From assembly GCA_032622095.1 (NCBI GenBank), contig CP136065.1:67795675-67859674 (forward strand): DNA of 64,000 nucleotides, read 5' to 3'. This DNA comes from Siphonodentalium dalli (lineage: Eukaryota; Mollusca; Scaphopoda; Gadilida; Siphonodentaliidae). Position 1 is the stretch's first letter. Each line of letters begins with the position of its first letter. A program made the position numbers and the translations under genes. Below the pieces are notes generated by a model. It made no database searches. It worked only from the letters and a program-made list of their open reading frames with translations, and was not told the DNA's origin. Of the stretch, positions 11,612 through 59,505 are shown in pieces.

Positions 11612-11669
11612 ATGGGTCGACTCTTCTCAACGTTAGTAGCGTATGCATTGGTAGCTTTACATGGTCAAG
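11612..11669 (+). CDS. VPV-repeat secreted protein A, exon with signal peptide
   Basis: The ATG is followed by 19 codons (MGRLFSTLVAYALVALHGQ) plus one base, then a GTGAGT donor at 11670, so the intron is in phase 1. A pyrimidine-rich acceptor ending TATTTTCAG lies 13 bp before the ATG, so an upstream 5' UTR exon is likely. Paralogues B and C have an exon of the same design (58 and 61 nt, same phase). The hydrophobic core LVAYALVAL marks a signal peptide. The likely cleavage site is in the next exon, after VCHA. No UTR exon or promoter could be found upstream; the duplication arm stops at 10534. Confidence 0.85.
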
Positions 11670-12185
11670 GTGAGTACAAACTTCGTCCATCAGGGTAATT
11701 GTAACCAATGGGGTGTAATTATCACCAGGGTGGTGTATAACGTGACCAATCTTTGTTTGTCTTTGGGACTATTCCCAATGAACTCGTATTTGCAATTTAC
11801 CATGTACCATAATAACGCTAAGTCGCTAAATAAATGTGCAACGAAGTCCACCAACTGAGTCAGAAATAATACAAGCATGACAAGTATAATACCCTTAGTT
11901 GAGAATGTTCTTTAAACAACTTGTTGAATGGTTATGTCTCAACTGAACCCAATAATTTCTAGCTTTCTGACATAAATGTCGAACGAAATTAAAGTAGTAT
12001 ATTATATTCACGAAAAACTACTAAAGAAACTAATTGACAACGTTCACTAGCAATTTTACGCACACGGTATAGCAAAATAAATTTATCAATAACGCTTGTT
12101 GTTTCCTTTGGGCAAAACTTTGGTAGTGAGATACGGAAGAACGTGCTGCTTAATGTGGATGTAAGTGATTACATGTATAATTATA

Positions 12186-12333
12186 GGCCATGAAGACCAT
12201 GACGCGTGACGCTCTCATTGAGAGCTTTCCGATGAATGGCAACAAGCCATATTTCCGACTAAATCCTGAAAAGTTACCCATGATTCTGCTGTGGTTAAGG
12301 AGTCGATTATTTAGGGTATTACTGTATAGCAAC
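12186..12333 (+). other. Coding-like insertion in the intron of gene A, absent from B
   Basis: Compared with the intron of gene B, about 140 bp are extra here, between AATTATAG and TATAGCAAC. The insert starts with ATG at 12190 and stays open through the end of the intron into the main exon, in frame (291 codons in all). It reads DALIESFPMNGNKPYFRLNP and onward, which looks protein-like and is not repeated elsewhere in the window. Splicing from the signal exon to the preceding AG would hit a stop within eight codons. It would therefore only work as an alternative first exon. It may be a transposon or gene fragment. Confidence 0.5.
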
Positions 12334-12376
12334 ATTTTCCCAACTTATATCAGTTGTTTTATCCATATCGTTGTAG

Positions 12377-13065
12377 TATGCCATGCTGACACCACGTCAG
12401 TTACAGTCATACAACCATCCGTTGGTAATATCAACATCGGAACACCAGACTTCGATCGTCAAAACATGCTGTCCACAAATGACCCTGCTGGTTTTGATCT
12501 CAACGTCAACTCAGGTAGCCAGTTCCACACAGGCAGCCAATTCATATTCGATGGCCCTGCCACGTTTGATCAACAACTCGCAGACCCTGCTTCATTCAAT
12601 GGCGCAATCGTTGGAAACCAGGTCAACCAATTCGCAGACCAGGCGTCATTCGGTGGTGCAGTCGTTGGAAACCAGGTCAGGCATGTCGCTGGGCCATTAG
12701 TCAGCATCCCTGTTATGGCTACAAGATTCGCTCGACCGGTCACTACCCTGAACAGCGTCAACCTCCTTAGACATGTTCCCGTCCGGACTGTCAGCACAGC
12801 CAATGTCGTTAGACCCGCCACCATTCAAAGAACAAGAATGATTCCCACAATGAGGCGCTTCCAGGTTGCTCGTCCAGCAAGTGTGCCCGTCGTCAGGCAC
12901 GTCCCAGTGAACGTCTACCAGAATTATCAGCAGGTACAACACATACCAGTCCAGACTCATCAACATGTGAACGTTGTGAACAGAGTACCCGTCACATCGA
13001 CACGATTGGCAACCACCGTACAACAGAAATTTGTCCCCACCGGGACAAGATTAGTTCCTGTATAA
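12377..13065 (+). CDS. VPV-repeat secreted protein A, main exon
   Basis: It is joined to 11612-11669 across a 707-bp intron (acceptor TTGTAG at 12376). The whole protein is 248 aa. After VCHA, the predicted cleavage site, comes an acidic Asn/Gly/Gln-rich part. Two copies of an 18-residue unit of the form xASFxxAxVGNQxxxxA follow. The C-terminal half of about 130 residues is basic, nearly lysine-free and built around recurring VPV or IPV steps (RHVPVRT, RHVPVNVY, QHIPVQTH, NRVPVTST, RLVPV). There is no cysteine after the signal region and no enzyme motif. It is probably a structural extracellular protein, by inference from secretion, low complexity and gene copies; the family is not recognised. 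Confidence 0.9.
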
Positions 13066-14180
13066 ATTATGATTCATATTGATATATAGTTTATACTAAG
13101 GATCAGAGTTGTGTACTAAAATAGCTATAGTCTCAGGGTAGCTGAGCGGTAATTTATATTTAAATGAGTATGATCTGTCAGTCCGTCTCTTTTTCTGTCG
13201 TTTCTTGTTCGTCCAGACTCCTGGCCGATTTCAACCAAATGTGGTGTGGTGAGTTTTTTCCAAAATGTTGTTTTAAAAATTGTCCATTTTCGATTTAGGA
13301 AGGAGTGCAAATTAAAACAAAAATAAAAAAATGGTGTATTTATTTGTTGACTCATCAAAATGTATTTATTTTTTGGGTAATCAAAATGTTGAAACAGGCC
13401 TCTATGTCGCTGAATAAAGGCTCCCTTCTGGAGCCTGTTTCACCCAGTATATTAATAAGATCTATATTTAGTTTTGTGGAAACTCCATAACAACTTTCGA
13501 AATAATCACACAGATCTACGCGCTCCACTATATATGCAAAGCGAAATAAATTTCAATAATATTCTGTTTCGTGTAAACAATATATTGTCTATCAAATATA
13601 TAGAGTGGTGCATATATATATGATCACAAAGGTCTTTGTGATTAATCGCGTTGTTTAAGTATAAATGGAACTGACATATAAAACAATATACCAATGCTTA
13701 TTATATGGGTCATCCCTTTTCTGAAGTTTATTGACATTAAAACATAATTTCTGCCCGCTAACAGAAAACAAGGAATCCCGTCTCGTATATGGTCAATACT
13801 AACCTGGTATTAGTGAGTGACGTTAGTTTTGTTATCATTAGGGGTATACAATTATTACATTCTTGAAGCTATTTATAAGACAGTATGACTCTGGTCTGGT
13901 GTGTGCATATGTATTATACTTCATCCTCATCAATGTGTGGCTGGTCCACTATTGTTTGTCATAACCATGTGTTGAAAGTTTTATTAATAAATATAATTGG
14001 TTCACAAAATGTTTACTTGTTCGCATTTGCTACTACAATATGATTTCGCCCCATCTTAAGGCTTAAATAGTGATTAGACGAGTTTGTTGCGTTAGGCCTT
14101 ATATGGCAATTAGATGTAAGCGCGTGTGTCATGGCGTTTCTTGCTTTCAACCCATAAGATAATTATGGAGGCTGGATGCT

Positions 14181-14186
14181 AATAAA
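14181..14186 (+). promoter_or_regulatory. Candidate polyadenylation signal of gene A
   Basis: AATAAA lies in a block conserved with gene B, where the same AATAAAGACTTTAT sequence occurs on the minus strand at 33791. It is close to the outer end of the homology between arms. It would imply a 3' UTR of about 1.1 kb, so an earlier signal (for example at 13413 or 13544) may be used instead. Confidence 0.35.
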
Positions 14187-14223
14187 GACTTTATACAACA
14201 TGGCATTTATTGCAACATTGAAC

Positions 14224-19153: not shown

Positions 19154-19158
19154 CACGT

Positions 19159-19878: not shown

Positions 19879-20391
19879 GTGACCAATATGGACGCCAGGT
19901 AACAAATTTTGTAAACAGTTCTGAAATTCCTTGTTTAGTGCGCAATATGATATTTCGAAAAACGGGAGTGTAGCGAGATTCACGAGGATTGTTCACACTA
20001 TTCCGATGTGATTGAAACGTGTCTGATAATTCGGCTCATGTGGATATTTTGATGATTCAAAGAGGATTATCTTTCATCTTTCGTAAGTTCGTCATTTCAT
20101 GCATAACGTCGCAAGTCGAATTTACCTGATGACATTCCTCTCACATATTAATGCTGAATAATCTACATTAACTCCTGTTGTGTTATGAACTGACAATTAA
20201 AAAAAAAATCATTTTGACCTTATGTGAAGAAAAACTGTGAAAATTTTCAAAATTGACCTTTCACCCCAGCATACCCAATTAGCTGGGTTGAACCAGCCAA
20301 TCACAATCGTCAGTTGTGTTTACGAGACATTCCACAGCTACAACTATATCGTAAAATTGTGCAGACAAGCTGAACAATCGCCATTTCGAGC

Positions 20392-21294
20392 ATGAACGAG
20401 AATGACAAACGTGCGCGCGGGTCTGACGACAGTTCATTATCACCAATGGACTCAAAGAAACAGAGAGAACTCAGTCGTGTGGGGAGTTCCCCTGTTTTCG
20501 GAATCGGCGATCCGTACGATAACAGTACGTTTGATGACGAAAACTCTCAGCCTCAAAAACCAACGGGCATGCCATACAGTTCCCAGGCTGGAGAATTACT
20601 GAGAGAGTTCAAAATAGCTCTCCAAGATCCCGAATTCCAAAATTCCATGCGCAGTATTTTCAAAAGCGTCTGTACTGAGTCCAACATCAATTTGCAGGCC
20701 AGAGTCACTAAACTTGAGGATTCGAATGCGGACATGGAACGAAGAGTGGGAATCCTAGAAGAAGGCCTTAAAATGAAGGACGCATGGATATATCAACTCG
20801 AATCCGACATTGATGGACTGAAACAGTACGGCATTCGCAACTCACTACGCATCACCGGGGTTGCGGAATCTCGTGGAGAGTCGGTCCAGGATATTGTGAA
20901 AAATCTTGGTGAAGAGATCGGCGTTACCGTGGAGCCCGAAGACATCGAAAGAACACATCGATCAGGGAAGATTGGTAGCCAAAGATCCATCTTGGTAAGG
21001 TTTCACCATTATAAGAAACGGGATAAATTCTATCGCGCTATAGCAGCCCTAAAAAACTCTAGGACATATAAGGGTGTCTTCGTTAACGAGCACACTACCA
21101 ACAATCGTTCTCAGATGGCCGGAGTATGTAGAAAGCTGAAGAAAGACCAGTTGATAGAGTCTACGTGGACATTCAACGGCATTATATTCGTGAAAGACTG
21201 GGCCGCGACAGTTCACAGGATCGACAGCTTTGGAGAGTTCGACGATTTCAGAAGGCAACTCTTCAGCCCACCTCGTAAGCCTCGTGGCACATAA
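20392..21294 (+). CDS. LINE ORF1: coiled-coil, RRM-type RNA-binding protein
   Basis: 300 aa from a good ATG. The N-terminal 90 residues are polar and Ser/Asp-rich. A coiled coil follows at about 95-145 (ARVTKLEDSNADMERRVGIL). Then comes an RRM (NSLRITGV at about 148; ERTHRSGK; RSILVRFHHYKKRDKFYRA) and a C-terminal domain. This is the trimeric ORF1p design known from L1- and CR1-like elements: it binds element RNA in cytoplasmic particles and acts as a chaperone during target-primed reverse transcription. The ORF is intact. Confidence 0.9.
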   Translation: MNENDKRARGSDDSSLSPMDSKKQRELSRVGSSPVFGIGDPYDNSTFDDENSQPQKPTGMPYSSQAGELLREFKIALQDPEFQNSMRSIFKSVCTESNINLQARVTKLEDSNADMERRVGILEEGLKMKDAWIYQLESDIDGLKQYGIRNSLRITGVAESRGESVQDIVKNLGEEIGVTVEPEDIERTHRSGKIGSQRSILVRFHHYKKRDKFYRAIAALKNSRTYKGVFVNEHTTNNRSQMAGVCRKLKKDQLIESTWTFNGIIFVKDWAATVHRIDSFGEFDDFRRQLFSPPRKPRGT

Positions 21295-22085
21295 ACATCA
21301 GTTATGACACTTTGACAGCCCACATATATTGTTCTGTCAGATTAACCCAGCATTGTCTGTATATGTGTTCCCCTGTGTCCACCGACGCGCACTAGTACAC
21401 ACTACAACCACCAAATTAATCGAATACGCACAGTAAGCCGTATACGATAAATAAGCACTTGAAACAAGTTCCATTAGCTGGCATAATTATAGGGACGAGG
21501 AAGTAAATAATACCATGCATAAACACCATATCATTATATATTATAATTCGATGCAATAGGGCATCAAACTAGCCATCTATGTCCTTGCTAATAAAAATCG
21601 ACATGCGATATTACTCCGCCAAATCAATCAAACGCTCACTTACGGTATACTATACATTCCAGCTCTCTTTTATCGGCCATCTTAGGATCTATCCGCATTA
21701 TATCGAGGTGCACCGACACCGATAGAGTTACTCTTCTTTGTGTCCGTGATTATGCATGATCACAATGTCCTCGCTATAATCAAGTCTACATATTGTCTTC
21801 AACAGCAGATGTTGTTACTGGGACCTGGAACCGTGATTGCATCTTTAAGAAATTTATGCTACTTATACACAAGCTTAATACTATTCCTGTAGTATATATA
21901 ACTCATGTGACCGACCTGTCCACTAAACACATTTTGATTAACGAAAGAATCCGACGGCATCAGACATGCCAATGGAGGTAACTCTATCCAAAGAGTTACA
22001 TCCCTAGCTCGAGTTACATTTATAGACATACTGACTGGCCAACAAAACACACATCGTTTAAAGTGACTGACGATTACTTGACTTG

Positions 22086-22128
<43 letters not shown>

Positions 22129-23129
22129 ACACATATAAACACACATGCGCATCAACGTGTTCGTTTACGCACGACACGCGACTTGCTGTCAACCACACCT
22201 CAAATCATACAATGTATCGATCTACTACACCTTGGCAATGATAGTTTAAAGCAAAATTTATTTTACTCTCGAATGCGCGAAATGCAAGCGTTATCGACTT
22301 CACTGTCACCTGATATTAGTGTTCTCATGAAAGCTCTTCCCACTGAAATGCCGGATGGCCTGGAAACTCCTAACTTACTCCACCGATGCAGTTATTCGCG
22401 GCGTCCATGCAGATCACTCTCCTTGTGAAATAATTTTCTCAACTGGCTGGCGACCGTAGAATTATCTCCCTTTCGACCGTAAGCCCATGTTGTGTTATCG
22501 TTCTTCGTACTCACGTAGAGTGACCGATCTTTCACCTGGTTATGCACGCCAAACACGAATACTATTATTATTGTAACCGATTGGTGATAAGTCTGGGACT
22601 GTATGTCTACGTACATTACGGTTGTGTTGTGATCAAGATGGAAGTCAACTGGTTATATAACCAGTGGACTTCCAATTTGATCACAATACATCCGTAATTT
22701 AATTACATAATATATTTACACACGGATGTCCGTCATTTACTACACATTGTAAGCTCACATCTGATCATTCTCATCCATAAACGCTCGCACAATCTGTACT
22801 AATATTGGTAGAATTAATTCACACGACAATATTGGTATCTTAGGTCACCGTTTTATATATTGAACTTACAAACAAACACATAAGTATTGCAGTGTATATA
22901 ATCTTTTTTTTTCAGAACTGTTTATGATTTTCTACTTTCATGTGTGTATATCTCTATACCATGCTTATCATTATTACCTTTATTCTTACATCCATCGCCA
23001 CACCCTCTCTATCCTTACATCTTTATGATTACTAATACAATCCCCGGCTATTGACTCAGGCCTCAAACCGACGAACCGATGACAGGAACGAACTGCCTAC
23101 CCGCTTAAAATATACTAAGATATACACCG
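21295..23129 (+). other. Long inter-ORF region of the nested LINE
   Basis: There are 1.8 kb between ORF1 and ORF2, unusually long for a LINE. It holds a (TA)n run at about 22088-22126, an 84-bp palindrome (22615-22698) and an open frame at 22063-22428 with no family I recognise. It may carry secondary insertions. No RT or endonuclease motif is present. Confidence 0.6.
22615..22698. repeat. Imperfect 84-bp palindrome
   Basis: The arms ATTACGG...GTGATCAA and TTGATCAC...CCGTAAT meet at ACTGGTTATATAACCAGT without a loop. About nine in ten positions pair. It could form a cruciform or be a minimal inverted-repeat element inserted in the LINE. Confidence 0.85.
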
Positions 23130-26100
23130 ATGATCCTGGCTGACGTGCACCGTTCACGGGTAGGCATGTTCTATACTCGCGCGCGTTATGCTAAGCGAAA
23201 ACATAGATGCGACCCATTGATATCGGAATTACTCATCTTTTACATTGGATTACAACTAAAGGGCGCTGGTAAAAATGAAATACTACTGGCCTTACTCATG
23301 CTGTTTATGGTGAGATACAACGACAAAATTGAAATCTCAACTACATCTACGCGAAAAAACGTCCGACACAATCTTTTGGCCAATACCCAAATTGGAATTC
23401 CCTTCTGGTTCAGGCATCTTCTCATCACTTCTGGTGATATTAAACCAAATCCTGGTCCCACCAATAATGGTCAACTGTCACTATTCCATTTGAACGTACA
23501 AAGTTTCCTCCCTAAAATCGACATACTTGCCACCGAAATACAAAATTACGATATATGCGGCTTTACGGAATCTTGGTTGAGCGATAAAACTGACCAGCAT
23601 GACTTACTAATACACGGATTTGACGAACCCGAGCGAGCCGACAGAGTAGGAACGGACAGTGTAGGTGGGGCGTGATCGCTTATATCAAAAACGATTTAGC
23701 CTATACACGCAGAAAAGATATCGAGAAACCTGGTTTAGAAAGCATTTGGCTTGAAGTTATATTACCGAGAGAAAGAGTGTTGATTGTTTTTTTTTACCGC
23801 CCCCCAAATGTGAATTGCTGGCACAACATATTAGAAAACATCGGTGACACCATAAATTCGAATCCCACACACAAACTAATTGTCTCTGGAGACTTTAATG
23901 AAAATCAATACAACCCTGTAAACAAGAAAGTACAAACCATAGTCGCAGAATGTAATCTGAAACAAGTTATTCACGACTCCACAAACTTCACAGAATACTC
24001 TGAAACCATAATAGATCTAATATTCATAAATGATCTATGTGAACTGAAAGGATCTGGTACCCTGGATCCCTTTTTTCCGACCTAGTCCGCTATCATGTGC
24101 CGGTATATGCCACGATAGAAATCGAAGACAAACAGAAAGGAAGCAAATCTTTTAATCGTCTTATTTACATGTATGATGAGGCTAATTTTATTTCCTTAAA
24201 CAATGAAATTCGTTCATGTGACTGGAACCGAATAATTGACAACCTGGGAACTGATAAAATCTGCTCAACATTCACATCATATATGAATAATCTTATCGTC
24301 AAATATGTACCCAGCAAAATTGTCAAATGCCGTCAGAACGAGCCTGAATGGATGACACCGAGAGTTAAGTATCTCATTAGAAAACGGAAAAGGGTACACA
24401 AAACTGCAAAAGCTAGGAACACCCCAGCCATGTGGCAAAAATATCGGACAATCCGCAATGAAGTAATTACTGAAGTACGAAACTCAAAGAAAATTCATAT
24501 ACAAAAAATGGAATCAATCCTTCAAGATCCAGAAACTGGCGACTCAAAATGGTGGAAGATTTTCAACAAACTGTCTCGCAAAAAAGTTAATTCGGTCCCG
24601 CCCCTCTCGAGGAATGGAATAGTTTCTTCCTCAGATTACGAGAAAGCAACTGTACTAAATGATTATTTTTGCAATATTGCCTCATTGAATATGACCTACG
24701 ATCTGCCAGACCCGCCTGTCGACGAGACAAACACCCCCATGCTAAATAATATCCTAATTAGTGAAATTGACGTTTTTAATGTCCTGAAAGTAACAAAAGC
24801 CGACAAAGCCTCTGGACCCGACCAAATAAGCCCGCGTATTCTGAAGAATTGTCTCAGTCTCAGCACCCCCCTTTCTGTAATATACAATCGTTTTCTTAAT
24901 GAAGCATATTTTCCAACTGAATGGAAACGAGAAAACGTAGTCCCAATCCATAAAAAAGGGGACCGCAGTAATCCAGAAAACTACCGACCAATCTCCTTAT
25001 TAGGAGTTTTTGGAAAGGTTTTTGAGAAGTGTGTTGCAAAGCATTTAATGTCATATCTCCAGTCAAATAATATCATAACCGAACGACAGTCGGGATTTGT
25101 GCCATCAGATTCAACATCATATCAGTTATGCGACATATACCATCACTTGGCGAAATCACTAGATGATGAACGCGACGCCCGCCTACTATTCTTCGACATC
25201 AGCAAGGCATTTGACAAAGTGTGGCACGATGGCTTATTATATAAGCTAAGCGCGGTGGGTATCCGCGACAATCTTTTAAAGTGGTTCGGATCGTACCTCG
25301 GTGGAAGACACCAACGTGTAGTTATGGGATCCGAAGCCTCAAACTGGGGAACCATTACAGCTGGAGTTCCACAAGGCTCAGTACTAGGCCCTATCCTATT
25401 CCTTGTTTTTATTAACGACATTGTTAATGACATATCATGTAATATCCGACTTTTCGCTGACGATACATCTATATCTCTTTCAATAGAAGATCCGACTGTT
25501 TGCGCACTAAGATTACAACAGGATGTCAAACGACTTGAATCCTGGTCAAACAAATGGCTCGTAAAATTTAATGTCTTAAAAACTGAAGCGTTAACTTGCA
25601 CTAGGAAGAGAAATCTAATCGACCACCCAACCCTTTATATGAACAATGAACCCATCACGGAAGTAAAACTCCATACACATCTTGGGGTCGTTTTAAGTAG
25701 CGACGGAAAATGGAAGCCACACATAGATAATTTATTAAGCTCAGCATGGAAAAGAATAGCCCTTATCAGAAAACATCGTTTCTCGTTGGATAGAGCATCA
25801 ATAGAAAGATGCTACTTTACCCTGGTACGCACTGTATTAGAATACGCTTGTGTTGTCTGGGATGGTTGCACCAAAGAAGAAAGCGATGACATAGAAAAAG
25901 TACAATATGAAGCAGCTCGTATAGCAACAGGTGCAACCCGATCTGCCAGTAACAAATCTCTCCTGACGGAAACCGGATGGGAACTCCTCGCCGTACGGCG
26001 GAAACGTTTAAAGCTCCGTCTCTTTTACAAAATGATGTCTGGCCAAGCCCCTCCTTATCTGCGAAATCTAATACCCCCAACAAACGTTGAAATAACAAAT

Positions 26101-26613
26101 GTTAACACCCGACAGGCTAATTCCCTGAGAGCCCCAAAGTTCGATTCCACTTCCTTCAAAAAATCCTTCATCCCCTCAACAACAGACCTCTGGAATAAAC
26201 TCGACCCGAACGCAACAAGTTACGAGTCCCTTGCATCATTCACAAAGTCCTTAAACTGTACTAGAGAGGGAGTACCCCGATATTACTATGAAGCTATTAC
26301 CAGAAAAACACAAATTAACCACACCCGCCTCAGACTCAACTGCAGCGATCTAAATTATCACAAGTACACAAATTTCATCGCCGATCACCCATATTGTTTA
26401 TGCGGACAATTAGAGGACAACGACCATTACCTAATGAATTGCGATAGATACACAGCTGAAAGAAACTCACTTCTCCAGTCATTAAATGATATATGCAACC
26501 TGACAACACACAAACTTCTGTATGGATGCCCCGAATTAACACCCAAAACCAACGCAAAATTTTTCAGAGAAGTACAGAAATACATCTCCAGGACAAAGCG
26601 CTTCGCCAACTAA
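23130..26613 (+). pseudogene. LINE ORF2: 2A-like leader, APE endonuclease, reverse transcriptase (frameshifted)
   Basis: The segments are 23130 to about 23668, about 23669 to about 24070, and about 24071 to 26613, in three frames. The first carries a leader of about 100 residues, the 2A-like stretch ending GDIKPNPGP (residues 102-110), and the start of the endonuclease (FHLNVQSFLPK, GFTESWL). The second continues it (FFYRPPNVN, SGDFNE). The third has the reverse transcriptase (ASGPDQISPRIL, YRPISLLGVFGKVFEK, FFDISKAFDKVWH, GVPQGSVLGP, FADDT at 25453) and a C-terminal Cys/His motif (YCLCGQLEDNDHYLMNC). Both frame changes fall in homopolymers (GGGG, TTTTTT). They may be decay or sequencing error. 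Confidence 0.88.
23406..23459 (+). other. 2A-like translational skipping motif
   Basis: It encodes FRHLLITSGDIKPNPGP. The 2A consensus is DxExNPGP; here the usual Glu is Lys (DIKPNPGP), while the hydrophobic run and NPGP are kept. Such motifs are known at the N terminus of APE-type LINE ORF2 proteins in several invertebrates, where they separate the leader from the endonuclease during translation. Activity with Lys is uncertain. Confidence 0.8.
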
Positions 26614-27464
26614 ATAAGTTTGTATATCGCTATGTTAAATGATCTAATACTCTCAGACATAAAAGAATGAATGTATACTTAGCAATAACTCGCGCGAGTA
26701 TCAATGCCATACAGTCCGTTGGTACGAGGTCACCGAGTCATTTAAAACACTAAAAACCCATTCTAAAACCCCTGAACCATATCTGACATAACCCAATTTA
26801 CTACTCTAAGCTCATTGCTTTCCTATTATTAACTTAGACTTATACCGTTCTACCATTACCATTACTGGTGATCTATCTTTTCCCATCAACATTGCCAGCA
26901 GCATTTCGAACATGAAACGTTATTGTTATATCCTTTAAAAATAGACTCAAAAGACCATAATTTATCTACTTATATATCTATTTAATATATAAACCAAACA
27001 TAATTGCACATTAATGAAAAAAGTGGAAAGAAGAGCCAGTGAAAAGAAATATGTTGGACGCTTTTGCGACACGAAGTTTATTCTACATGTACATATCTGA
27101 ATCTATACAGAAACATAGGGAAGAGATACACCATCATTATCTATAAAACATTAATTATTATTCATGCCTATACACAATTACATAATGCCATTACCTGACG
27201 TACCTACACCCACCCCACCTCGCGAGAGTAATAATCGGCTACATGGAACGACAGTAGTATCTGGATTACGGAATGTATATCGTACGACACAACATTATAT
27301 AAATCAGACAGTCGCTCTCTCGCTGGGTGGGATGGACAAAAACTGATTCCCGGAAACGACTCACATAAGCACACACGCTTGATGTCGAATCCGGTCCATG
27401 ATGTTATATTCTGATATGTTGTAATTTATGTTGTATTGTTCATGGAATAAATACTGTTTAAACT

Positions 27465-29318
27465 AACTGATTTTTCACCTGGTCGAAACGCCGACCGAAG
27501 AAGATGTTTCATTGCTTTGACACTTGCCTCCGCGTGAGAATTGGACTGCGGATATCGCGGTGACGAAGTAATGTGCCGAACACCCCAGTCTTTTAGAAAT
27601 GTCTGGAAAACACGAGATGCATACTGCGGTCCATTATCACTATAAAGAATTGTCGGATTTGCCGTATCAGTGAATGTCTTTTTGCAAGACTCGATCAGTT
27701 TAACTGAAGTTGCTTCTTTTCCCAAGTTAAAAATAGACGGCCAGCCAGACTTGACATCTGTTATTATCAGATACTGACATCCATTTGAGGTAAACAAATC
27801 TGAACACATGTGTTCAAACACTCGGCTAGGAACCGGATGTTGTTTTATTGGCTCCTGGCACTGAGAAGGAAGGCGTTCACTGCAAATCCTACAGGATCGT
27901 ACAGTCCTATCTATATCTGCATCAATTTCTGGCAAATAAACAGTCAAGCGAGCCCTGCGCTTCGAACGTTCAATCCCTTGGTGGCTTGCATGCAGTTTAG
28001 TCAGAATGTTTTTCCTCATTTCTTTTGGAATTACTAATCGGCAGCCACACACGATATAGCCATTGTCAACTGTAAGTCGATCGCGTACGGCCCAGTATTG
28101 ACGGAGAGCAAGTGATAAGTCTTTCTTGTCGTCTGGAAATCCTTTCTCGACAACTGAATACAGTTCCTGATATTCGCCATCGTCACTTGAAACGTTTTTT
28201 ACAGCTTCAAGATGGAGGTCCTCCTCGACAATATCATCTGATATAGGCTGGATCATAATGGATCTCAAACTGTACTCAACCTCTTGCTCTAAAATCTGGT
28301 CCTCGTTATCAGGGTCCTTTATTGGGTTACGGCTGAGAGCATCTGCAGCAGACAATTTAGTTCCAGGAATCCACGTCGTGTGGAATTGATATCGCATCAG
28401 CTTCATTCGCATAGTTTGTAGTCGAGGATTGTCAATGTTACTCAAACAATAACTATTTAATATTGGCACAAGTGGTCGATGATCCGTAACGAGTTCGAAT
28501 TTTGACAGTCCTTCCAGGAAAATTCGACATTTTTGAACTGCCCACACGGCTGCTAACATCTCCAGTTCAATCATGGCATACCGAGTTTCCGCTGCGGATA
28601 GAAATCTTGAGCCTGCTTGAACGACATGCCACGTTTTATTTGACGGTTCCTGTTGGAAAAGGACGAATCCTAAACCATTCAAGCGACTGGCATCGACATG
28701 TAATGCAGTAAGTCTTTGAGGCTCATAATACGAGAGAACAGGCACGGTACACAGGACATCTCTGGCTTTTCTGAACGCCGTTTCGTGAACCGAATCCCAT
28801 ATAAATTCGTTGCTCGACTTGAGAAGTGGTCGTAAAGGGTCTAGATATTTGGCAATCTGATTAGTAAAGCCAGCCAACTGGTTCGCCAGCCCAAAAAATG
28901 ATCTGAGATCAGTTATGTTCTTTGGAACTGGGAAGTCACTGATAGCTTCCGTAATATCAGAACTGATTGTATATCCTTTGTCGTTTATTCTGTAACCGCA
29001 GAACGTAACTTCGGATTCACCGACAACGAATTTATCAGGATTCAACGAAATGCCCTTCTGCGAACAACGGGTTAGAATCTGACGTACATGTGCCACGTGC
29101 GATTCGAGTGAGTCATCATATGCCACAAAATCATCAACAATTTTCCGATGTCTCGGTATTCCAGTGAGAGCTTCGTCCATCCGCCTATTGTAGTGTTCGG
29201 ATATAGAACAAATTCCAAATGGAGCCCGTAAAAACATAAACGTCCAAAAGGGGTGATAAATGTTGTCAGACGTTGACTGTCGGGAGACAGAGGGCACTGC
29301 CAGTAGCCACTGAGACAA
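27465..29318 (-). pseudogene. Gypsy pol: RT second half, RNase H, integrase core
   Basis: This continues RT after a frameshift near 29240. It has FMFLRAPFGICSISEHYNRR, then the catalytic VDDFVAYD, then RNase H (LHVDASRLNGLGFVLFQQ, IELEMLAAVWAVQKC, VTDHRPL). The integrase zinc region follows (HASHQG, CRICSE) and then the DDE core (SDLF, YSDNGPQYASR, AEASVKAMKHLL). The frame then enters the LINE insertion at 27464. The proteins copy element RNA and insert it into the genome. The catalytic residues that can be seen are retained, so the breaks are recent. Confidence 0.92.
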
Positions 29319-30985
29319 TCAAACGATGCGAAGAAACGAGCGTTTGTAGCTGCCATGTCCGCAACAGCTTCCTGTGGAGACGGGGATTGGTATCGCTCCC
29401 GTTGAACAAACTGGTTCAATTTGGTGAAGTCGACACATAGGCGAATATCGTCCGAATTTTTTTTCGGGGCCACTACAATTGGGGCACACCATTCGGTAGG
29501 ATCTGTTACTGGAACTATGATTCCATTTTCGAGCATACTATTCAGTTTATCTTGAAGTTTATCTCGATATGCATAAGGAATGGTGCGTGGTGCTTTTATA
29601 CAGAAAGGAATGTGATTGTCCTGGAGTTCGATTTTAAATTGCTCATCGGGCATAGCGCGGATCTCACGATCGAACACAATGGGAAATTCCGCCATGAACT
29701 GCTCTCGAAGAGTTACAGAGTCGCTTATTTCGCTGGTCGCATGCATACGGTCTGTGGTTATCGCGTTTGTCTCCGTAATCGCGTTTGTCACATGCGTATG
29801 GCCTGTTGATGCTCCGATGTCAACATGGTTCCGATCATTAACAAAAGTGTTCCCTTGTACACTGGTTATACTAGTAGAAGTCGTCGCTTCACAATAACCA
29901 TCAGGTAAAGCAGTAGTCGCATGCATATGGTCGCTCGCGAGTAAACTGTCGTTTTCCGCAAGATACATCATAGGTTTCAACATTTTACCTCCTCTCTGTG
30001 CTGGATAGTCCTCTGGAATGATGCCAAGGTCTCGTGACGTTATCCATGACATGTATAACCCTGTTGTGCCTTGCAACACGTGAATGGTATCTTTAACACG
30101 ATAAGATCCACACACAATTTCAGCATCAAATTCTCCCAGTTGCTCAATTTCTCGGTTATCTGCGGCACGCAAAGAAGCAGTAGTTGGTCGCAGATTCAGC
30201 GGATCAATCTCGAGTTGGCAAAGTACATCCAACCCACAGGCTGATCCCTCAGCCCCAGTATCTGGAACTGCTTGAATTATCTTGCCATTCGCTATTTTGC
30301 CTCCAACCAGAACATCAATCGTAGGTGCTTTTCTGTGCGATATTGGAGCTAACAGGGGCCCGAAATGTATGACAGAAACATGTTTTTGCGATGAGACTGT
30401 TCCTTTTCCTTGGCACAATTTTGATTTAGCCCAATGTCCCTTGCACAAGCAAACTGCGCAATGTGAATTAAACGCTGGACAACGAGCGTTCGGAGCGTGT
30501 TGTTTCGTACATTTTTCACAAATCGTCGTCTTCGGTGTACCTTTATAGTCTCGCGAAAATTGCTGTTTTTTATTGCGTTCCCGTTTATATTGTGATATTG
30601 CACAAATGTCATTGGAATCGCCAGTAATCTCTTTGCGGTGTCGTTTCGTAGCTTCCTCTGCGCGACATATAGCAATCGCACGCGTAAGGTCGACATCCTT
30701 CTCAACAAGTAACCGTTCTATCGTATCGGAATCTTGTATGCCCGTAACGATTCGATCTCGGATCAACGACTCTTCACATGCGTCGCAAAATGAACACGTT
30801 TTTGCAAGTTCCCTCAGGTCGGTAACATAGTCATCGAAATGTTCATCTTCACTTTGGGTTCGTAAATTGAAATTTCTGCGTTCTATAACGATATTCAATT
30901 GTCCATGCACATGAAGATGAAGGGCCTTAATGATCTCAGTTGGGACGTTCTTCTTATCATCTGGCAGATTCAAGTTTAAAACAAC
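29238..30985 (-). pseudogene. Gypsy gag C-terminal part, protease and RT first half
   Basis: Numbered from the leucine codon at 30973: the gag capsid-like part is at about 1-145. Zinc-knuckle sequences follow at 152-187 (ICEKC; CAVCLCKGHWAKSKLC, with an atypical H-x6-C spacing). The aspartic protease signature DTGA is at 238. RT starts at about 440 with WCAPIVVAPKK, IRLCVDFTKLNQ and SYWQCPLS-like SGYWQCPLSPDSQ. The frame departs from the RT pattern at 29238-29240, where one base is missing, and then runs into unrelated sequence. Confidence 0.9.
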
Positions 30986-32200: not shown

Positions 32201-32686
32201 TTAACCCTTTCATGGCGGGAGCTTCATGAAATTTTGCGAAAACCATGTGCCAATGCATTCTGTTATATATGCGAGTCGACCATACTAGGTCGTCTCGTAC
32301 ATATAAGAGAATGCACTGGCCTAACACATTTTATATTATTTTTGGTATAAATATTGTTAAAGAATGAAAGAAAAAAGAAAACAAAATGATACAAAACTGT
32401 TATATATGTAAGAAATAATGATGAAAAATCATAAAAACTGTTAAAGAATGTAGGAAAAAAATTATACAAATTGTTATAGAATGTAAGAAAAGAATTACAA
32501 GAATGTAAGAACAAATGATAAAAAAAATGGTAAAACAGATGATGAACATTTTTACAGAATGTAAGAAAAATTGATAAAAAATAGTAACAAATTGTCGATG
32601 GTCGACTCGCACATATAAGAGAATGCATCGGCACATGGTCTTTAGTGTTGCGCCATGCAGTGCAGCTCCCGGTATGAAAGGGTTAA
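32201..32686. mobile_element. piggyBac-like MITE (TTAA, 486 bp)
   Basis: TTAACCCTTTCATGGCGGGAGCT at the left pairs with a near-exact inverted copy at the right, and TTAA is at both borders as in piggyBac elements. Inside are a long hairpin (GCCAATGCATTCTGTTATAT to GAATGCACTGGC, 32251-32316) and an A-rich array of GTTAAAGAATGTAAGAAAA-like units. A single hairpin arm follows near the right end (32586-32634). Related copies are at 410, 7285, 55936, 56650 and 58740. Confidence 0.85.
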
Positions 32687-34678: not shown

Positions 34679-35421
34679 TTATACGGGAACTAATCTTGTC
34701 CCGGTGGGGACGAATTTCTGTTGTACGGTGGTTGCCAATCGTGTCGATGTGACGGGTACTCTGTTAACAACGTTCACATGATGATGAGTCTGGACTGGTA
34801 TGTGTTGTACCTGCTGATAATCCTGGTAGACGTTCACTGGGACGTGTCTGACGACGGGCACACTTGCTGGACGAGCAACCTGAAAGCGCCTCATGGTGGG
34901 AACCATTCTTGTTCTGTGAATGGTGGCGGGTCTAAGGACATTGGCAGTGCTGACAGTCCGGACGGGAACGTGTCTAAGGAGGTTAACGCTGTTCAGGGTA
35001 GTGACCGGTCGAGCGAATCTTGTAGCCATGACAGGGATGCTGACTAATGGCCCAGCGACATGCCTGACCTGGTTTCCAACGACTGCACCACCGAAGGAGG
35101 CTGGTCCGGCGATATGACTGATCTGGTTTCCAACGACTCCACCACTGAATGATGCCTGGTCTGCGAATTGGTTGGCCTGGTTTCCAACGATTGCATCATT
35201 GAATGAAGCAGGATCTGCGAATTGTTGACCAAAAGAGGCAGGGCCATCGAATGTGAATTGGCTGTCTGTGGGGAACTGGCTACCTGAGTTGATGTTGAAA
35301 TCAAAACCAGCAGGGTCATTTGTCGACATGATGTTTTGACGATCCAAGTCTGTAGGTCCAGTGTTGATATTACCAGCGATTGGCTGTATGACTGTAACAG
35401 ACGTGGTATCAGCATGGCATA
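34679..35421 (-). CDS. VPV-repeat secreted protein B, main exon
   Basis: It is joined to 36051-35994 across a 572-bp intron (acceptor ATTTGCAG before 35421). The whole protein is 266 aa. It has the same plan as A: VCHA cleavage site, acidic Asn/Gly part, 18-residue xASFxxAxVGNQxxxxA units, then the basic VPV-repeat half ending TGTRLVPV. It has three such units where A has two; the extra 54 bp accounts exactly for the length difference. The C-terminal half is almost identical to A, while the N-terminal repeats vary more. Confidence 0.9.
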
Positions 35422-35993: not shown

Positions 35994-36051
35994 CTTTACC
36001 ATTTAAAGCTATCAATGCACACACTACTAACGCGAGGAAGAGTCGACCCAT
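35994..36051 (-). CDS. VPV-repeat secreted protein B, exon with signal peptide
   Basis: ATG at 36051; 19 codons (MGRLFLALVVCALIALNGK) and one base; GTGAGT donor; phase 1. An acceptor ending CTATTTTCAG lies just upstream of the ATG, so the 5' UTR is spliced. The matching UTR exon is probably the one ending at 39221. The hydrophobic core is longer and stronger than in A. Confidence 0.88.
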
Positions 36052-50757: not shown

Positions 50758-50845
50758 ATAATGAATGGCTTGGAGTTGACTATGCCAAAATAGTGGTCCT
50801 CGAGGACCACTATTTTGGCATAGTCAACGACAAGACATTCATTAT
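50758..50845. repeat. Near-perfect palindrome with a 54-bp perfect core
   Basis: From 50775 to 50828 the sequence equals its own reverse complement with no spacer, centred on CCTCGAGG (arms GTTGACTATGCCAAAATAGT and onward). Outside it AATGAATGGCTTG pairs with CAAGACATTCATT with one indel, then AT-rich sequence. It can extrude as a cruciform. It could be a tiny inverted-repeat transposon or a replication-born palindrome. Confidence 0.95.
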
Positions 50846-52453: not shown

Positions 52454-53293
52454 TGTTTGTGAGTTGACGAATTATCGATTGAGAACGTGATTGGTGGTGA
52501 TTTTGGGGATATCACCTGGTGCACATAGTGTTGTACCCATCGGGTAACCAAAGCGAGAAAGACGTATATCGTGAGGAGCTTCTGAAAGCAATTATACTCA
52601 TCGACCGTATGCCTTTATAGTTTATATATGTTTCCGTTCACATTCTGTCACCATAGGTTTTTCTATGAGAAATGACTGCAAAACACGCTGTGCAAACTTA
52701 CAAGTGTAGGAAGATAACAATACAGGCGTAGTCAGAGTAATGATTCATGGCATTGAGCCATCACATGATATGCCCCGGGCGACAGGATTATAAACCGCTT
52801 TATCGGGGCCGTGAACTTACGTCACATTTGTTCTCGAAAACCAGCGGCAGGATATCATACTGGAAATTTCAACATTAGTGTGTGTATATATTGCAAATAT
52901 ATGAGCAAGTTATTGGACTCACGAGCTGATTCAATAGCTCATATCGGATACCATTCTGCAAACAACAGTTATTTATTTTATTTGGAAGAATTTGGCGTTA
53001 AGCTTCAATTTTTCACAACCTCGAAAAATGGTGACCGACTAATATATCTTCTCAACAGTCATATTTAAATGATAATGGGATTGGTACGTGGTGGGCTATC
53101 AAACACGATACATAGTCCATTCGATGTCTGTTGTTGTTTACTCGTTTATGTATGTGACGCAACCGGTGTATTATTCACTTATATGTGAGACAATTCAGCA
53201 CCTAAACGCTTCGAGTTTTTGCAGCATGATTCAAGATATTATGAAACTCGAATTTAATTGAAACATTATATTCATACATATGGTGCCCAATTA
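52454..53293. other. Unassigned spacer
   Basis: An 85-codon frame at 52811-53068 has no recognisable family, repeat or splice partner. I treat it as chance. Confidence 0.3.
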
Positions 53294-53790
53294 AAGGTAC
53301 GGTTGGCCTTGGCGGTGGGTATCCTGTAAAAATATTTCTACCTGTCAAAAACCGCCACAAACAGAAAGAACATAAAAATGTAGACAGACTTTGTCCGTAT
53401 ACAAATAAGAAATATCGCACAACAGTATGTTATTGTTATTTGTTTGACCATTGTTATGTAAACAAAAGCATAAAAAGTTAATTTTCTGGTGTTTGTTTAT
53501 ATTATGATAGTAAACATAAAGAGCGTTCTTTGTTGGTGAATTCCTGATATGGAACAAATAAAGAGCGTTTATGCCATTTTTGTGTGATTAGCCAGTAGCA
53601 TTGTGCTGTCTTCTGTAACACAATCAGGCTCTTGTTAGGTAAAATATAGTAGGTCTTTATGATAACATGCTGTTTACGCGATAGTCATGGTATATATGAA
53701 CGAAACTGTATGCATTTTAATGTTTTTCTGTTCACGGTGATTGGAACAAATATGAATATTTTCGACAACTAACGCCTCGCGTGCCTTTAA
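53294..53790. mobile_element. MITE copy 1 (AAGGTACGGTTGGCCTT ends)
   Basis: It is about 95% like 57891-58388 by eye and in the same orientation. Its ends AAGGTACGGTTGGCCTT and AAGGCACGTGAGGCCTT (reverse complement of the right end in copy 2) are similar 17-mers. It contains AAAGAGCGTTCTTTGTTGG twice in related form. Non-coding. Confidence 0.75.
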
Positions 53791-54583: not shown

Positions 54584-55122
54584 TTACACGGGAACTAGTC
54601 TTGTCCCGGTGGGGACGAAAGCCTGGTGTACGCTGGTTGCCATCCTGGTCGATGTGACGGGTACCCTGTTGACAATATTCACCGGTTGGTGAGTCTGGAC
54701 TGGTATGTGCTGTACCTGCTGATAGTTCTGGTAGATGCTTACGGGGATATGCTGAACGACTGGGACAGTTCCTTGACGAGCAACTTGGAAATGCCTCACA
54801 GTGGGGACAAATTGCGTTCTTGCTACGGTTCCTTGGCTAAACATGTTGGCTGTGCTAAGCGTCCTGATGGGGATTTGTCTAACGAAGTTAACTCTGTTGA
54901 GGGTGGTGACTGGTCGAGCGAATCTTTGAGCCATAACTGGAATGCTGACCAATGGCCCAGCGACGTGTCTGACCTGGTTTGCAGCGACTGCACCGTTAAA
55001 TTGAACGGAGTTAGGAACAGCGAACTGTTCGCCAAAGGTGGCAGGCTCGCCGAATGACATATGTCCAAACCGTCCCATACTTTGCTGTCGAACTTCAAAT
55101 GGTGTGGAATCTGCATTGCATA
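54584..55122 (-). CDS. VPV-repeat secreted protein C, main exon
   Basis: It is joined to 59505-59445 across a 4.3-kb intron (acceptor TTCTTGCAG before 55122). The whole protein is 199 aa. VCNA followed by D marks the cleavage site, as in A and B. The N-terminal variable part is short, with only about one xASFxxAxVGNQ-like unit. The basic VPV-repeat half aligns along its whole length (RQIPIRT, QHIPVSIY, QHIPVQTH, NRVPVTST, TGTRLVPV at the end). It is the most diverged of the three, so the A/B pair arose later. Shared lack of Lys and high Val, Arg, Gln and Pro point to one structural role. Confidence 0.9.
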
Positions 55123-55935: not shown

Positions 55936-56211
55936 TTAACCCTTCCATGACTGGAGTTTCCTGAAATTTTGCAAAAAACAGATGCCAATGCATTCTGTTA
56001 TATATGCGAATCTCCCATAGGGAATCTCGCATATATATGAGAATACATTGGCCTAACAATATTTACCTTGACATGGTAAGCCAGTGTATTCTCTTATATA
56101 TGTGAGCCTCCCTGTATGGGCCCCATATGTGAGATTCGCATATATAACAGAATGCAATGGCGCATAATCTTTAATGCTGCACAAGCGCAGCTCCCATAAT
56201 GAAAGTGTTAA
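55936..56211. mobile_element. piggyBac-like MITE, short copy (276 bp)
   Basis: TTAACCCTTCCATGACTGGAG at the left and CTCCCATAATGAAAGTGTTAA at the right, with TTAA on both sides. Inside are two hairpins with GCATTCTGTTATATATGCGA-type arms. Same family as 32201-32686. Confidence 0.8.
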
Positions 56212-56572: not shown

Positions 56573-56649
56573 AGATTCATAAAATTAGCAACGCACACTC
56601 TACGAAAAATATGTATACAAATGTAACTGAGACACCCGTCTTACATGGA

Positions 56650-56890
56650 GAATGGCCCTGTGCCAATGCATTCTCTTATATATGCGAGTCGACCATAGGG
56701 CGCCTCGCATATATAAGTGAATGCATTGGCTTAACACATATTAAAAATGATAAAATTGTCAAAGAATGTAGAAAAATATTATAAAAATTGTTAAACAATG
56801 TAAGAAAAAATTCTAAAATTGTTAAAGAATGTAAGAAAAAATGGTAACCTATGGTCGACTCGCATATATAAGAGAAGGCATTGGCACGTT
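56650..56890. mobile_element. Hairpin MITE, same family, lacking TTAA ends
   Basis: The long hairpin (GCCAATGCATTCTCTTATAT to GAATGCATTGGC, 56661-56732), an A-rich GTTAAAGAATGTAAGAAAA array and a closing hairpin arm (56855-56885) are present. It matches the interior of 58740-59138 and 32201-32686. Confidence 0.75.
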
Positions 56891-56939
56891 CTATACGTGG
56901 TATTTTGTGCAATGCTCAATTACAAAATGACCCGCAGAA

Positions 56940-57203
56940 ATTAATGGCAGTATACTCGGTAGCCCAATGGTTAGAGTATTCGACGTCCGACTTCTCAGCG
57001 CATGAGTCATGCGAAGAATCACAGTATGCTTCAATTCAAATTCAAATTATTTATTAGATATAACCATATTCTAGGTTATCCAAGAATAATAATAAAAATG
57101 AAATACATAAATAAATATCATCTTACATATAATTATTAATAATTTAAGACATTGATCGACTTTAAATATTCCGACAGTTAGTCGCTGCCAATAGACTATA
57201 GTA

Positions 57204-57234
<31 letters not shown>

Positions 57235-57245
57235 TTAATGTGTTG
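56940..57245. repeat. SINE/LINE-tail traces and a (TA)n run
   Basis: GGTAGCCCAATGGTTAGAGT (56949) resembles a tRNA A box of a SINE. TTCAATTCAAATTCAAATT (57031) is a LINE-tail-like repeat on the minus strand. (TA)n lies at about 57205-57231. Confidence 0.45.
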
Positions 57246-57463
57246 GTTATCTCACCCTATACCAACCTCTTGTTAATATTTACTCGTAATATGAGCTATA
57301 GCTCTATTCGTTAATTTAGTATAGATTAATTCGAGGGTATGTTTGAGTTACGTATATCTAGGGCGTCTTTGATGAAATTACATATTTGCTTTGTTGCAGA
57401 GAAGGTTTTTGGGTTCAGCAGCATCTTGGGGTTGTTAATATTTTCTCCCAGTTGAAATATGTC

Positions 57464-57605
57464 AATTCAATTAATTTTGTTTTATTCTGATTTCGTTTAA
57501 GCGCATGGTTTCCTCGCTGGCGGATTGGATCGCCATCTGATGAGTGCCATGTTTAATGGCCGGGGTAACAACCGATATATAGCTCATTGAACAAAATTAA
57601 TTGTT
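57464..57605. mobile_element. Small inverted-repeat element
   Basis: CAATTAATTTTGTT (57468) pairs with AACAAAATTAATTG (57590). About 140 bp, non-coding. Confidence 0.5.
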
Positions 57606-57890
57606 TACACATGGATCTACTATTAATGTATGTGACAAAACTCACTCAAGTAATTTGGAAGGAGGTACAGGATATGTTGATAAATACACGAAATACTGAT
57701 ATACAGGCTTCATATGCCCTGAACTATATTTGCCATTGACAGCGCCATTTTCCTAATGTCTTCACATTTTCGCACATAAGTGAAACAGACGCTCTTTATT
57801 TATATCAGGAACATACCAACAAGGAACGCTCTTTTCTTATCCATGGCGTGCACATGGGCGTTGTTTGTTTGGGGACCAAACACCGTGTTC

Positions 57891-58390
57891 AAGGTACGGT
57901 TGGCCTTGGCGGTGGGTATCCTGTGAAAATATTTCCACCCGTCAAAAACCGCCACAAACAGAAAGAACAACAAAATGTAGACAGACTTTGTCCGTATACA
58001 AATAAGAAATATCGCATATGCAGTATGTTATTGTCATATCTTTGACCATTGTTATGTAAATAAAAGCATAAAAAGTAACTTTGCTGGTGTTTGTTTATAA
58101 TATGATGGTAAACATAAAGAGCGTTCTTTGTTGGTGAATTCCTGATATGGAACGAATAAAGAGCGTTTATGCCATTTGTGTGTGATTAGCCAGTAGCATT
58201 GTGCTGTCTTCTGTAACACAATCACACTCTTGCTTAGGTAAAATATAGTAATTCTTTATGATAACATGTTGTTTACGCGATGGTCATGGTATATATGAAC
58301 GAAACTGTATGCGTTTTAATGTTTTTCTGTTTACGGTGATTGGAACAAATATGAATATTTTCGACAACTAAGGCCTCACGTGCCTTTAAA
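57891..58390. mobile_element. MITE copy 2 (AAGGTACGGTTGGCCTT ends)
   Basis: Direct-repeat partner of 53294-53790. Just upstream, at 57789-57838, lies an inverted copy of its inner ACGCTCTTTATT...AACGCTCTTT segment, so a second, opposite copy may be partly present. Confidence 0.75.
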
Positions 58391-58739
58391 AGTTGTATTT
58401 TAATGACTTCATTGTGTCTTTCTGTGACATATATAATGCCCACAGAAAGATAGCTAAAGTATTTATCGACCTATTTCGATACCAGGATAAATCAGAAGAA
58501 AATATTAAGGGTATTTTGGAGCGCAAATCGCCATGTACAATGCCTACTCTCACTGTTCTAACATATTCATTGTACATGCCTCGTAAACGTATAATTTGGT
58601 AAGAGGTATCACAAAACATACCTTCCGAACACATATGCTGATATATAGCGCTGGAAATACGTGTGCATTTTGTCTTATATTTTTCTTCCTGATATTTTCG
58701 ATAAAATTGAGATATTCTCGTTTGTGTTAGTTCAATGAT

Positions 58740-59138
58740 TTAACCCTTTACCCAACAGAACGGCCCTGTGCCAATGCATTCTCTTATATATGCGAGTCGA
58801 CCATAGGTCGCCTCGCATATATAAGAGAATGCATTGGCTTAACACATTAAAATTTATAAAATTGTTAAAGAATGTAAGAAAAATGTTAAAAAGTGTTAAA
58901 AAAAGATTTTTTTTAGGCCAATGCATTCTCTTATATATGCGAGGCGACCTATGGTCGACTCGCATATATAAGAGAATGCATTGGCACAGGGTATATCTGT
59001 AACTATCACAATGTGGTCAAGGAGCCGGTTCCAATGATATCCATATTTGTATGGTTCTATTGAGACAGACCGAAGATATTTTAGGCTGTTGAAGCTTTAT
59101 TTGGCCGGTTTTGGCCGGTTTGTTGGGTAAAGGGTTAA
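58740..59138. mobile_element. piggyBac-like MITE (TTAA, 399 bp)
   Basis: TTAACCCTTTACCCAACA and TGTTGGGTAAAGGGTTAA are perfect 18-bp inverted ends including TTAA. Two near-perfect hairpins of about 68 bp (58771-58837 and 58918-58985) surround an A-rich GTTAAAGAATGTAAGAAAA spacer. This is the best-preserved member of the family in the window. Confidence 0.9.
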
Positions 59139-59444
59139 TCAGGGATCGCGTAAATATTGCACATTTTAGACATGTGTTCCAATTGTGTTCACTGGGGTTT
59201 AACCCTGTCTATGCTAAGGCATCATTAATGAGCAGTTATCTCATAGGAAATGTTCAGATTAATAAGTTCAACAAAAACGCCCATTTGTTGAACTTATTAT
59301 CTTAACATTTCCCTCAATAAACATGAACCCTTCTGCAGAATGCACTGTTATGTATCTGTCGTCTGCTTTTATCACGTTAACATCCCGCCAGATCAATAAT
59401 GGACAATTCCGATGTACATACAGTGTTAAAATGAAGATACTAAC

Positions 59445-59505
59445 CTTGATATTTTAGCACTGCGAATACACAGGCTACTAACATCGTTACGAGAAACATG
59501 GCCAT
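59445..59505 (-). CDS. VPV-repeat secreted protein C, exon with signal peptide
   Basis: ATG at 59505; 20 codons (MAMFLVTMLVACVFAVLKYQ) and one base; GTTAGT donor; phase 1. Size, phase and position relative to a pyrimidine-rich acceptor (TTATTTTTTCAG) match A and B. It lies 4.3 kb upstream of the main exon and was found only by comparison with the paralogues. The strong hydrophobic core supports secretion. Confidence 0.85.

Follow-up and report, generated by a model that had tools for sequence, protein, structure and literature searches.

A 64,000-nucleotide stretch of contig CP136065.1 of the scaphopod Siphonodentalium dalli (assembly GCA_032622095.1, positions 67,795,675 to 67,859,674 of the forward strand), here called the window, was analyzed for a group of three paralogous genes, copies 1, 2 and 3. 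Their predicted products combine a signal peptide, a variable N-terminal part and a strongly basic C-terminal core rich in Val-Pro-Val (VPV) motifs, and they are referred to below as the VPV family. An earlier note, made from the letters of the window, had described three copies of a secreted family and proposed a lineage-specific role in the extracellular matrix.

Three two-exon genes and their paralogues

The three genes were found where the earlier note had placed them, each with a signal exon of 19-20 codons followed by one long exon (Table 1); the outer limits given in the note, 11612 and 59505, are the start codons of copy 1 and copy 3. The phase-1 splice (CAAG/GTGAGT at the copy 1 donor) builds the cleavage site, which reads VCHA/D in copies 1 and 2 and VCNA/D in copy 3, as the note had proposed. 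An acceptor-like tttcag lies within about 25 bases upstream of each of the three ATGs, so that a non-coding first exon, with an intron in the 5' untranslated region, is likely. Copies 1 and 2 have intron and flank sequence in common in inverted orientation, and therefore one segmental duplication is taken as their origin.

Table 1. Features of the three window genes (positions in the window) and places of the family genes on contig C5.
Feature	Position	Strand	Details
Copy 1 signal-peptide exon	11612..11669	+	19 codons + 1 nt; MGRLFSTLVAYALVALHGQ; phase-1 donor GTGAGT
Copy 1 exon 2, stop included	12377..13065	+	mature protein start 12388 (DTTSV...)
Copy 1 basic core	12691..13062	+	eight 14-residue VPV-type repeats, core residues 12-123
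Copy 2 signal-peptide exon	35994..36051	-	
Copy 2 exon 2, stop included	34679..35421	-	
Copy 2 basic 14-residue-repeat core	34682..35053	-	
Copy 3 signal-peptide exon	59445..59505	-	20 codons + 1 nt
Copy 3 exon 2, stop included	54584..55122	-	
Copy 3 basic 14-residue-repeat core	54587..54958	-	
Full-core genes (18)	C5: 67.63-67.85 Mb		nine, three window genes included
	C5: 68.66 Mb		one
	C5: 194.74-194.92 Mb		five
	C5: 7.40, 8.46 and 66.82 Mb		singles
Shortened-core genes (7)	C5: 67.61 Mb		one
	C5: 68.55-68.65 Mb		six

The mature protein of copy 1 was used as the query for a homology search of the species' own genome (2.23 Gb, 9 contigs). Its 37 exon matches all fall on contig C5, and none has an internal stop. 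Reading of the loci in sequence yielded at least 25 open-frame paralogues on this one contig, a lower bound because only the best candidates were scored; 18 of them have the full core and seven a shortened one. Three copies is thus the count for the window and not for the family, and the clustering claimed by the note is supported. Two further genome searches with the most divergent members brought no further convincing member, and their matches off C5 had E values above 1. The C-terminal end TGTRLVPV, claimed as common, closes all three window copies but is not shared by the whole family.

The three window copies are genes under coding constraint, and this is well supported. In exon 2, copies 1 and 2 agree at 93.6% of 688 positions and are separated by a sole indel of 54 bp (18 codons); in the intron, their identity is down to 80.3% of 552 positions, and there are ten indels that vary irregularly in length. 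The ratio of nonsynonymous to synonymous divergence (dN/dS) of the core was 0.16 for copies 1 and 2, and 0.24 both for copies 1 and 3 and for copies 2 and 3. Moreover, the exon-2 frame is open down to a single stop in all 25 family genes. The ratio was computed for 20 hand-picked gene pairs, with core and N-part treated apart. Full cores gave 0.15-0.57 among the pairs with enough changes, and N-parts gave 0.24-1.55, with alignments that are unsure across subfamilies. The N-part ratio lay above the core ratio in most full-core pairs; it was near parity in copy 1 and L006 (0.31, 0.29), and the order was reversed in the short-core pair L013-L014 (N-part 0.24, core 0.48). The pairs L007-L009, L014-L016 (core 2.75) and L023-L024 (core 0.62) hold too few changes to be informative, and the values are partly saturated in the pairs of copy 1 with L011 and L023.

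Of the 25 genes, 21 (the three of the window and 18 others) have a similar signal exon of 19-20 codons followed by a phase-1 donor. The 18 were located by a script that required a start codon, a hydrophobic run and a phase-1 donor, so that the phase was built into the search; an all-phase version run in 11 loci returned one candidate only, which was unrelated. Unrelated candidates that also satisfied the script occurred at L020 (a microsatellite), L007 and L009. Weaker signal-exon candidates were seen for L023 (14.5 kb upstream, under a looser hydropathy limit) and L025, and none was found for L011 in the stretch examined or for L024 in the 3.6 kb upstream examined. The signal exon of cluster B (MTRFIIVIVASLIAGLHTQ type) has the same length and ending as that of cluster A. 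These exons indicate that the family proteins are probably secreted, which agrees with the secretion proposed in the note.

The genes at 67.71, 67.74 and 67.77 Mb are spaced by about 29.4 kb, and the synonymous divergence (dS) between the first two is 0. The genes at 7.40 and 8.46 Mb (L023 and L024) are 1.06 Mb apart and show a dS of 0.008; they may represent either a recent duplication or an assembly duplicate. A midpoint-rooted tree of the full cores (18 rows, 17 of them different; seven of the 14 inner branches weak) supported the ten full-core genes of cluster A (95/97), the 7.40/8.46 Mb pair (97/85) and the window trio (97/95), left cluster B unresolved, and put L025 on a long branch of unsure placement. 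Given this grouping of the ten genes, cluster A seems to have multiplied after its split from the remaining members.

The basic core and the block in front of it

The conserved half consists of a 14-residue unit that follows itself eight times without a gap, V-[RQ]-H-[VI]-P-V-x-T-x-x-x-[VA]-[NP]-V in copy 1, and the peptide FARPVTTLNSVNLLR is an example from the core. The note had seen this half as stepping through VPV or IPV motifs; the motifs are indeed enriched, and the description is corrected here to a 14-residue repeat in a fixed register. In a shuffle-based test of self-similarity, period 14 ranked first in all 18 full cores (z-scores of 3.2-6.9, often with extra peaks at 28 and 42). 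Twelve chunks of a protein from a long interspersed nuclear element (LINE) served as control and gave z-scores from -1.6 to 1.5 at period 14, the largest at any period being 1.7-3.4. The full cores are related and therefore do not constitute 18 independent tests; the period is visible singly in copy 1 (z 6.8) and in the distant L025 (z 5.4). Additionally, the motif [VI]P[VI] occurs seven times in the core of each window copy, against shuffle means of 0.67-0.82, and none of 5000 shuffles reached seven. It exceeded the shuffles in 16 of the 18 cores (at most 2 of 5000 reaching the count), with unclear results in L023 (318 of 5000) and L024 (332 of 5000). VPV itself was counted four to six times in 15 of the 18 cores, three times in copy 3 and twice in L023 and L024.

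No Cys is present in the mature part of any of the 25 proteins, and Lys numbers 0-1 in 24 of them and four in L025. The isoelectric point (pI) of the core is 12.0 in 24 members and 11.5 in L025, and that of the mature protein is at least 11.1 in 18, 10.5-11.0 in six and 9.2 in L025. Asp and Glu are absent from 11 of the 18 full cores; one core holds a single acidic residue and six hold two, these six carrying a C-terminal RRFW(R/Q)ED tail. The core composition over eight representative members was Val 20.4%, Pro 9.5%, Thr 10.3%, Gln 8.8%, Ala 6.5%, Ile 3.4% and Lys 0.7%, which bears out the note's almost lysine-free basic half. L025, the most divergent member, departs from this in having more Lys (4) and fewer Arg (5) in its core, and it holds 16 Tyr, with 1-6 in the 24 others. 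The scarcity of Lys is not an effect of base composition, since Lys codons are AT-rich in an AT-rich window, two LINE proteins of the window have Lys shares of 6.3 and 7.6%, and all three window genes use AGA more often than any other Arg codon.

The N-terminal part is acidic in most members, with a pI of 4.1-6.0 in 21 of 25 and copy 3 the least acidic at 6.0. The 18-residue units described in the note were recovered in copy 1 (z 5.2) and copy 2 (z 8.9); copy 3 lacks them, and they are not family-wide. Among the ten cluster A genes with a full core, all but copy 3 have a unit of 18 (or 36) residues. L022 has a unit of 11/22 residues and L025 one of 17, and the other four cluster B genes show weaker units of 28 and 12 (z 3.4-4.7). 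Six of the seven short-core members carry, behind an acidic block, Arg-rich runs of the kind TRFVRPTRF(V/F)RRPRFVRPV; the seventh also has Arg-rich runs.

Repeats and mobile elements around the genes

Positions 1-7400 of the window are occupied by a LINE-type element on the minus strand, with an endonuclease and reverse transcriptase frame at 1114-4752 and a second frame at 4756-5817. It is flanked by direct repeats of 1.6 kb that are 99.5% identical; the left one starts 1081 bases before the window and runs to position 524, and the right one lies at 5787-7400. The layout resembles that of an element with long terminal repeats (LTR) and is not usual among non-LTR elements, but it could also stem from a head-to-tail copy truncated behind its 5' region. 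Directly to the right lies a satellite of 383-bp units (7428-9506, 5.4 copies). A second LINE with an 856-codon open frame is found at 20374-26613, and a Ty3-like element at 27426-30985 has a single frame for RNase H, integrase and part of the reverse transcriptase.

The intron of copy 3 contains near-perfect 65-bp palindromes at 58772-58836 and 58919-58983 (CAATGCATTCTCTTATATATGCGAG...), with related copies near 32250-32612, 55985-56141 and 56663-56865. With up to two mismatches allowed, their 20-bp end motif was counted 15 times in the window, and it turned up in 11 of 40 loci, one of which overlaps the window; this palindrome is probably a short mobile repeat. At 50771-50832 there is a separate loopless palindrome of 62 bp, exact over its inner 54 bp. 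The same intron also holds the second copy (57888-58389) of a 500-bp dispersed repeat whose first copy, 94% identical, lies at 53291-53790. No Rfam family matched anywhere in the window at gathering scores.

Comparison with described proteins and proposed function

No Pfam family matched any of seven family proteins at E ≤ 10, and a sequence search of the PDB with copy 1 gave one chance-level match (E 0.99). A search of the open-access literature by motif and family, with most subscription journals outside its scope, returned look-alikes and no matching sequence, and the main text of a Lottia shell proteome (PMC3374290) mentions none of VPV, PVP, valine or basic. A scan of viral contigs gave 33 pattern matches and no relative. 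No homology with a described family emerged from these searches. The note's remark on the lack of a described family with this pattern nevertheless has to be narrowed, since basic Val-Pro-rich secreted matrix proteins have already been described and the kind is therefore not new.

The nearest working analogue is the alveoline-like shell matrix protein Alv of Pinctada, which the VPV family would at best resemble in the way it works. Alv is a secreted protein with Val 23.0%, Pro 12.9%, Lys 12.0%, Thr 5.1%, Ala 1.4%, Gln 3.7% and Ile 10.1%, about 6% acidic residues and a pI of 11.34; it is highest in the mantle and occurs in the EDTA (ethylenediaminetetraacetic acid)-insoluble fraction of prism and nacre, and injection of antibody against it damaged prisms and left nacre tablets overgrown (PMC6095885). 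The VPV family likewise shows a signal exon (in 21 of 25 genes), Val/Pro-rich sequence with VP repeats, His, and a strongly basic character with a pI near 11 or higher (12 in the core). The printed Alv composition table has no Cys row, and the mature VPV-family proteins are without Cys. The core differs from Alv in being almost free of both Lys and acidic residues, and neither an acidic N-block nor a 14-residue register is mentioned for Alv in the accessible text. In Mytilus, seven listed alveoline-like Val-rich proteins of the fibrous prism have a Val, Pro, Lys composition (PMC4517812), mantle transcripts of Pinctada maxima were labelled as a possible extracellular articulin family (PMC3191542), and the alveolin-like and MP10 genes of P. 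fucata are tandem neighbors (PMC4759782). A valine-rich shell protein of Perna viridis had C. virginica XP_022307204.1 as its best hit, and one Perna shell protein contains Gly 18.3%, Val 16.7% and Pro 11.3% (PMC6641155); a valine-rich secreted protein is also known from the mantle rim of Mytilisepta virgata (PMC5549309). By description, these are like the VPV family in being secreted, valine-rich products of shell or mantle rim, although the Perna protein is Gly-rich, unlike VPV-family proteins.

VPV enrichment is the mark of the articulins, which form the subclass with more than three VPV modules within the alveolins and articulins (epiplastins); the class as a whole is defined by a medial domain with acid-base dyads, a mostly neutral or negative charge and a near-exclusion of Gly and Ala (PMC6212826). 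As in the articulins, 15 of the 18 VPV-family cores have more than three VPV modules in a low-complexity Val/Pro-rich repeat domain. By contrast, none of the 18 members has an acid-base dyad within its first 125 core residues, a count that excludes the C-terminal tail of six members; this tail holds one dyad in those of the six that end in WRED. By that definition the VPV family is therefore not an epiplastin. It also differs in its 6.5% Ala and 10.3% Thr, in its strongly positive charge (core pI 11.5-12), and in having a signal exon, the articulins being sub-membrane proteins of protists.

The alveolin profile IMCp (PF12314) matched none of the seven proteins scanned at E ≤ 10. Genome-wide it gave 13 hits, none at a VPV-family locus, and the same search also matched in the control Caulobacter. 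Six hits on contig C2 and one at C5 157.5 Mb were rejected as alveolin genes, being by eye tandem-repeat DNA with long frames in several registers; four of the remaining six, at C5 212.7 Mb, have stops and two are 63-codon frames. At L032 and L033 (G000 C2:174440000-174456000), a tandem array of about 15 kb with a 12-codon unit of IPSVQCTDYIVG type has open frames of up to 1372 codons, with long frames in more than one register, and some segments of the array give weak scores with the alveolin profile. Chitin_bind_4 (PF00379, arthropod R&R cuticle) was absent from the seven proteins and had no genome match, in a search that matched no control genome either.

Taken together, these results lead us to favor, by a modest measure, the reading that these are secreted structural proteins of the extracellular matrix, expanded in one lineage and made as block-polymer chains. 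They would most likely belong to the organic matrix of some outer covering that the animal secretes, be it shell, periostracum, cuticle or sclerite. Of the lineage-specific matrix role proposed in the note it is the low-complexity structural character that the sequences support, and the note's suggestion of shell, byssus or cuticle goes beyond what they show. After removal of the signal, the chain would be a two-block polymer. Its low-complexity, fast-changing and usually acidic N-terminal block would set solubility and spacing, and its strongly basic (Arg/His) C-terminal block of VPV repeats might form short beta-type or extended segments. The VPV block would bind polyanions, whether acidic blocks of adjacent chains, acidic matrix proteins or polysaccharide, and the outcome would be an insoluble extracellular network without disulfide or lysine cross-links.

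Several points weigh against this reading. The core lacks the Lys richness of P. fucata Alv (0.7% against 12.0%), and the N-block is basic in four of the 25 members (L002, L004, L023 and L024; pI 9.4-11.3) and near-neutral in copy 3, so the acid/base design is not universal. The weakest core (L012, z 3.2) does not rise above the control maximum at any period (3.4). AlphaFold2 models, made from three-row alignments, gave predicted local distance difference test scores of 36 for the mature protein and 40 for the core, with no strands. A beta assembly is thus unsupported by these models; their low confidence would suit a disordered or assembly-dependent polymer and proves nothing.

The genes might instead be divergent true homologues of the bivalve alveoline-like, valine-rich or MP10 shell proteins in which Lys was replaced by Arg, that is, members rather than analogues, which is compatible with a matrix role. 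Secretion, the Val-Pro-rich basic character, the VP repeats and the neighboring genes are all in keeping with it (PMC6095885, PMC4517812, PMC3191542, PMC4759782), as is the Lys-richer, Arg-poorer core of L025. We nevertheless regard homology as unlikely, since the core differs from Alv in Thr, Ala, Gln and Ile as well as in Lys and no Pfam match was obtained for any of the seven proteins. A similarly low probability is given to the view that the proteins build a soft secreted product, namely an adhesive, a byssus-like thread, mucus, an egg case or a reproductive fluid. Low-complexity repeats free of Cys, together with an N-part that evolves fast (dN/dS up to 1.55), suit many secreted polymers, but the few Tyr and almost absent Lys in all members except L025 are unlike quagga mussel byssal proteins, which as a group abound in Pro, Gly and Tyr and also contain notable amounts of Cys and Lys (PMC6474901). 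Expanded C1q families have been reported in bivalves (PMC4759782), and a genome search here gave 13 C1q candidates with ten matches; byssus is not favored on this account, an argument that is weak, the count being a lower bound. A tyrosinase search gave six matches, and searches for the haemocyanin beta-sandwich, big defensin and ELH gave none, the same three having matched no control genome.

It appears very improbable that the proteins are cationic host-defense precursors cut into Arg-rich peptides. The Arg-rich runs of the short-core members, the acidic pro-like block in front of them and the tandem clusters would fit such precursors, but the full core is constrained and keeps one 14-residue register throughout, and a peptide that is simply released would have no use for this. 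Low complexity and a repeat-rich neighborhood might suggest chance open frames or repeat remnants rather than genes, an explanation with a negligible chance of being correct in view of the 25 open frames, the full-core dN/dS values, the conserved splice signals and the contrast between exon and intron.

Within the favored reading of a secreted structural family, a bolder proposal can be put forward, although we hold it to be doubtful as a whole. The core would be an undescribed repeat domain, a 14-residue VPV unit taken eight times with no gaps and virtually devoid of Lys, Cys and acidic residues, forming the basic half of one-chain acid/base block copolymers that assemble by charge pairing without covalent cross-links. 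The partner block would have been swapped between subfamilies (18, 17, 11/22 and perhaps 12/28 residues), and the core would be a convergent, animal extracellular counterpart of the articulin VPV repeats.

Lineage-specific low-complexity secreted proteins are common. The VPV family is solid as a gene family and ordinary as a kind, and it is unusual in its 14-residue register and its charge layout. If the proposed reading is true, the family would provide an example of how a secreted covering evolves: purifying selection preserves the conserved basic repeat as a scaffold, and meanwhile the attached block is rebuilt with different units and the genes multiply in clusters. Moreover, a Cys-free and nearly Lys-free acid/base block protein would offer a clean test, provided by nature, of whether such a covering can assemble by charge (coacervate-type assembly) in the absence of covalent cross-links.

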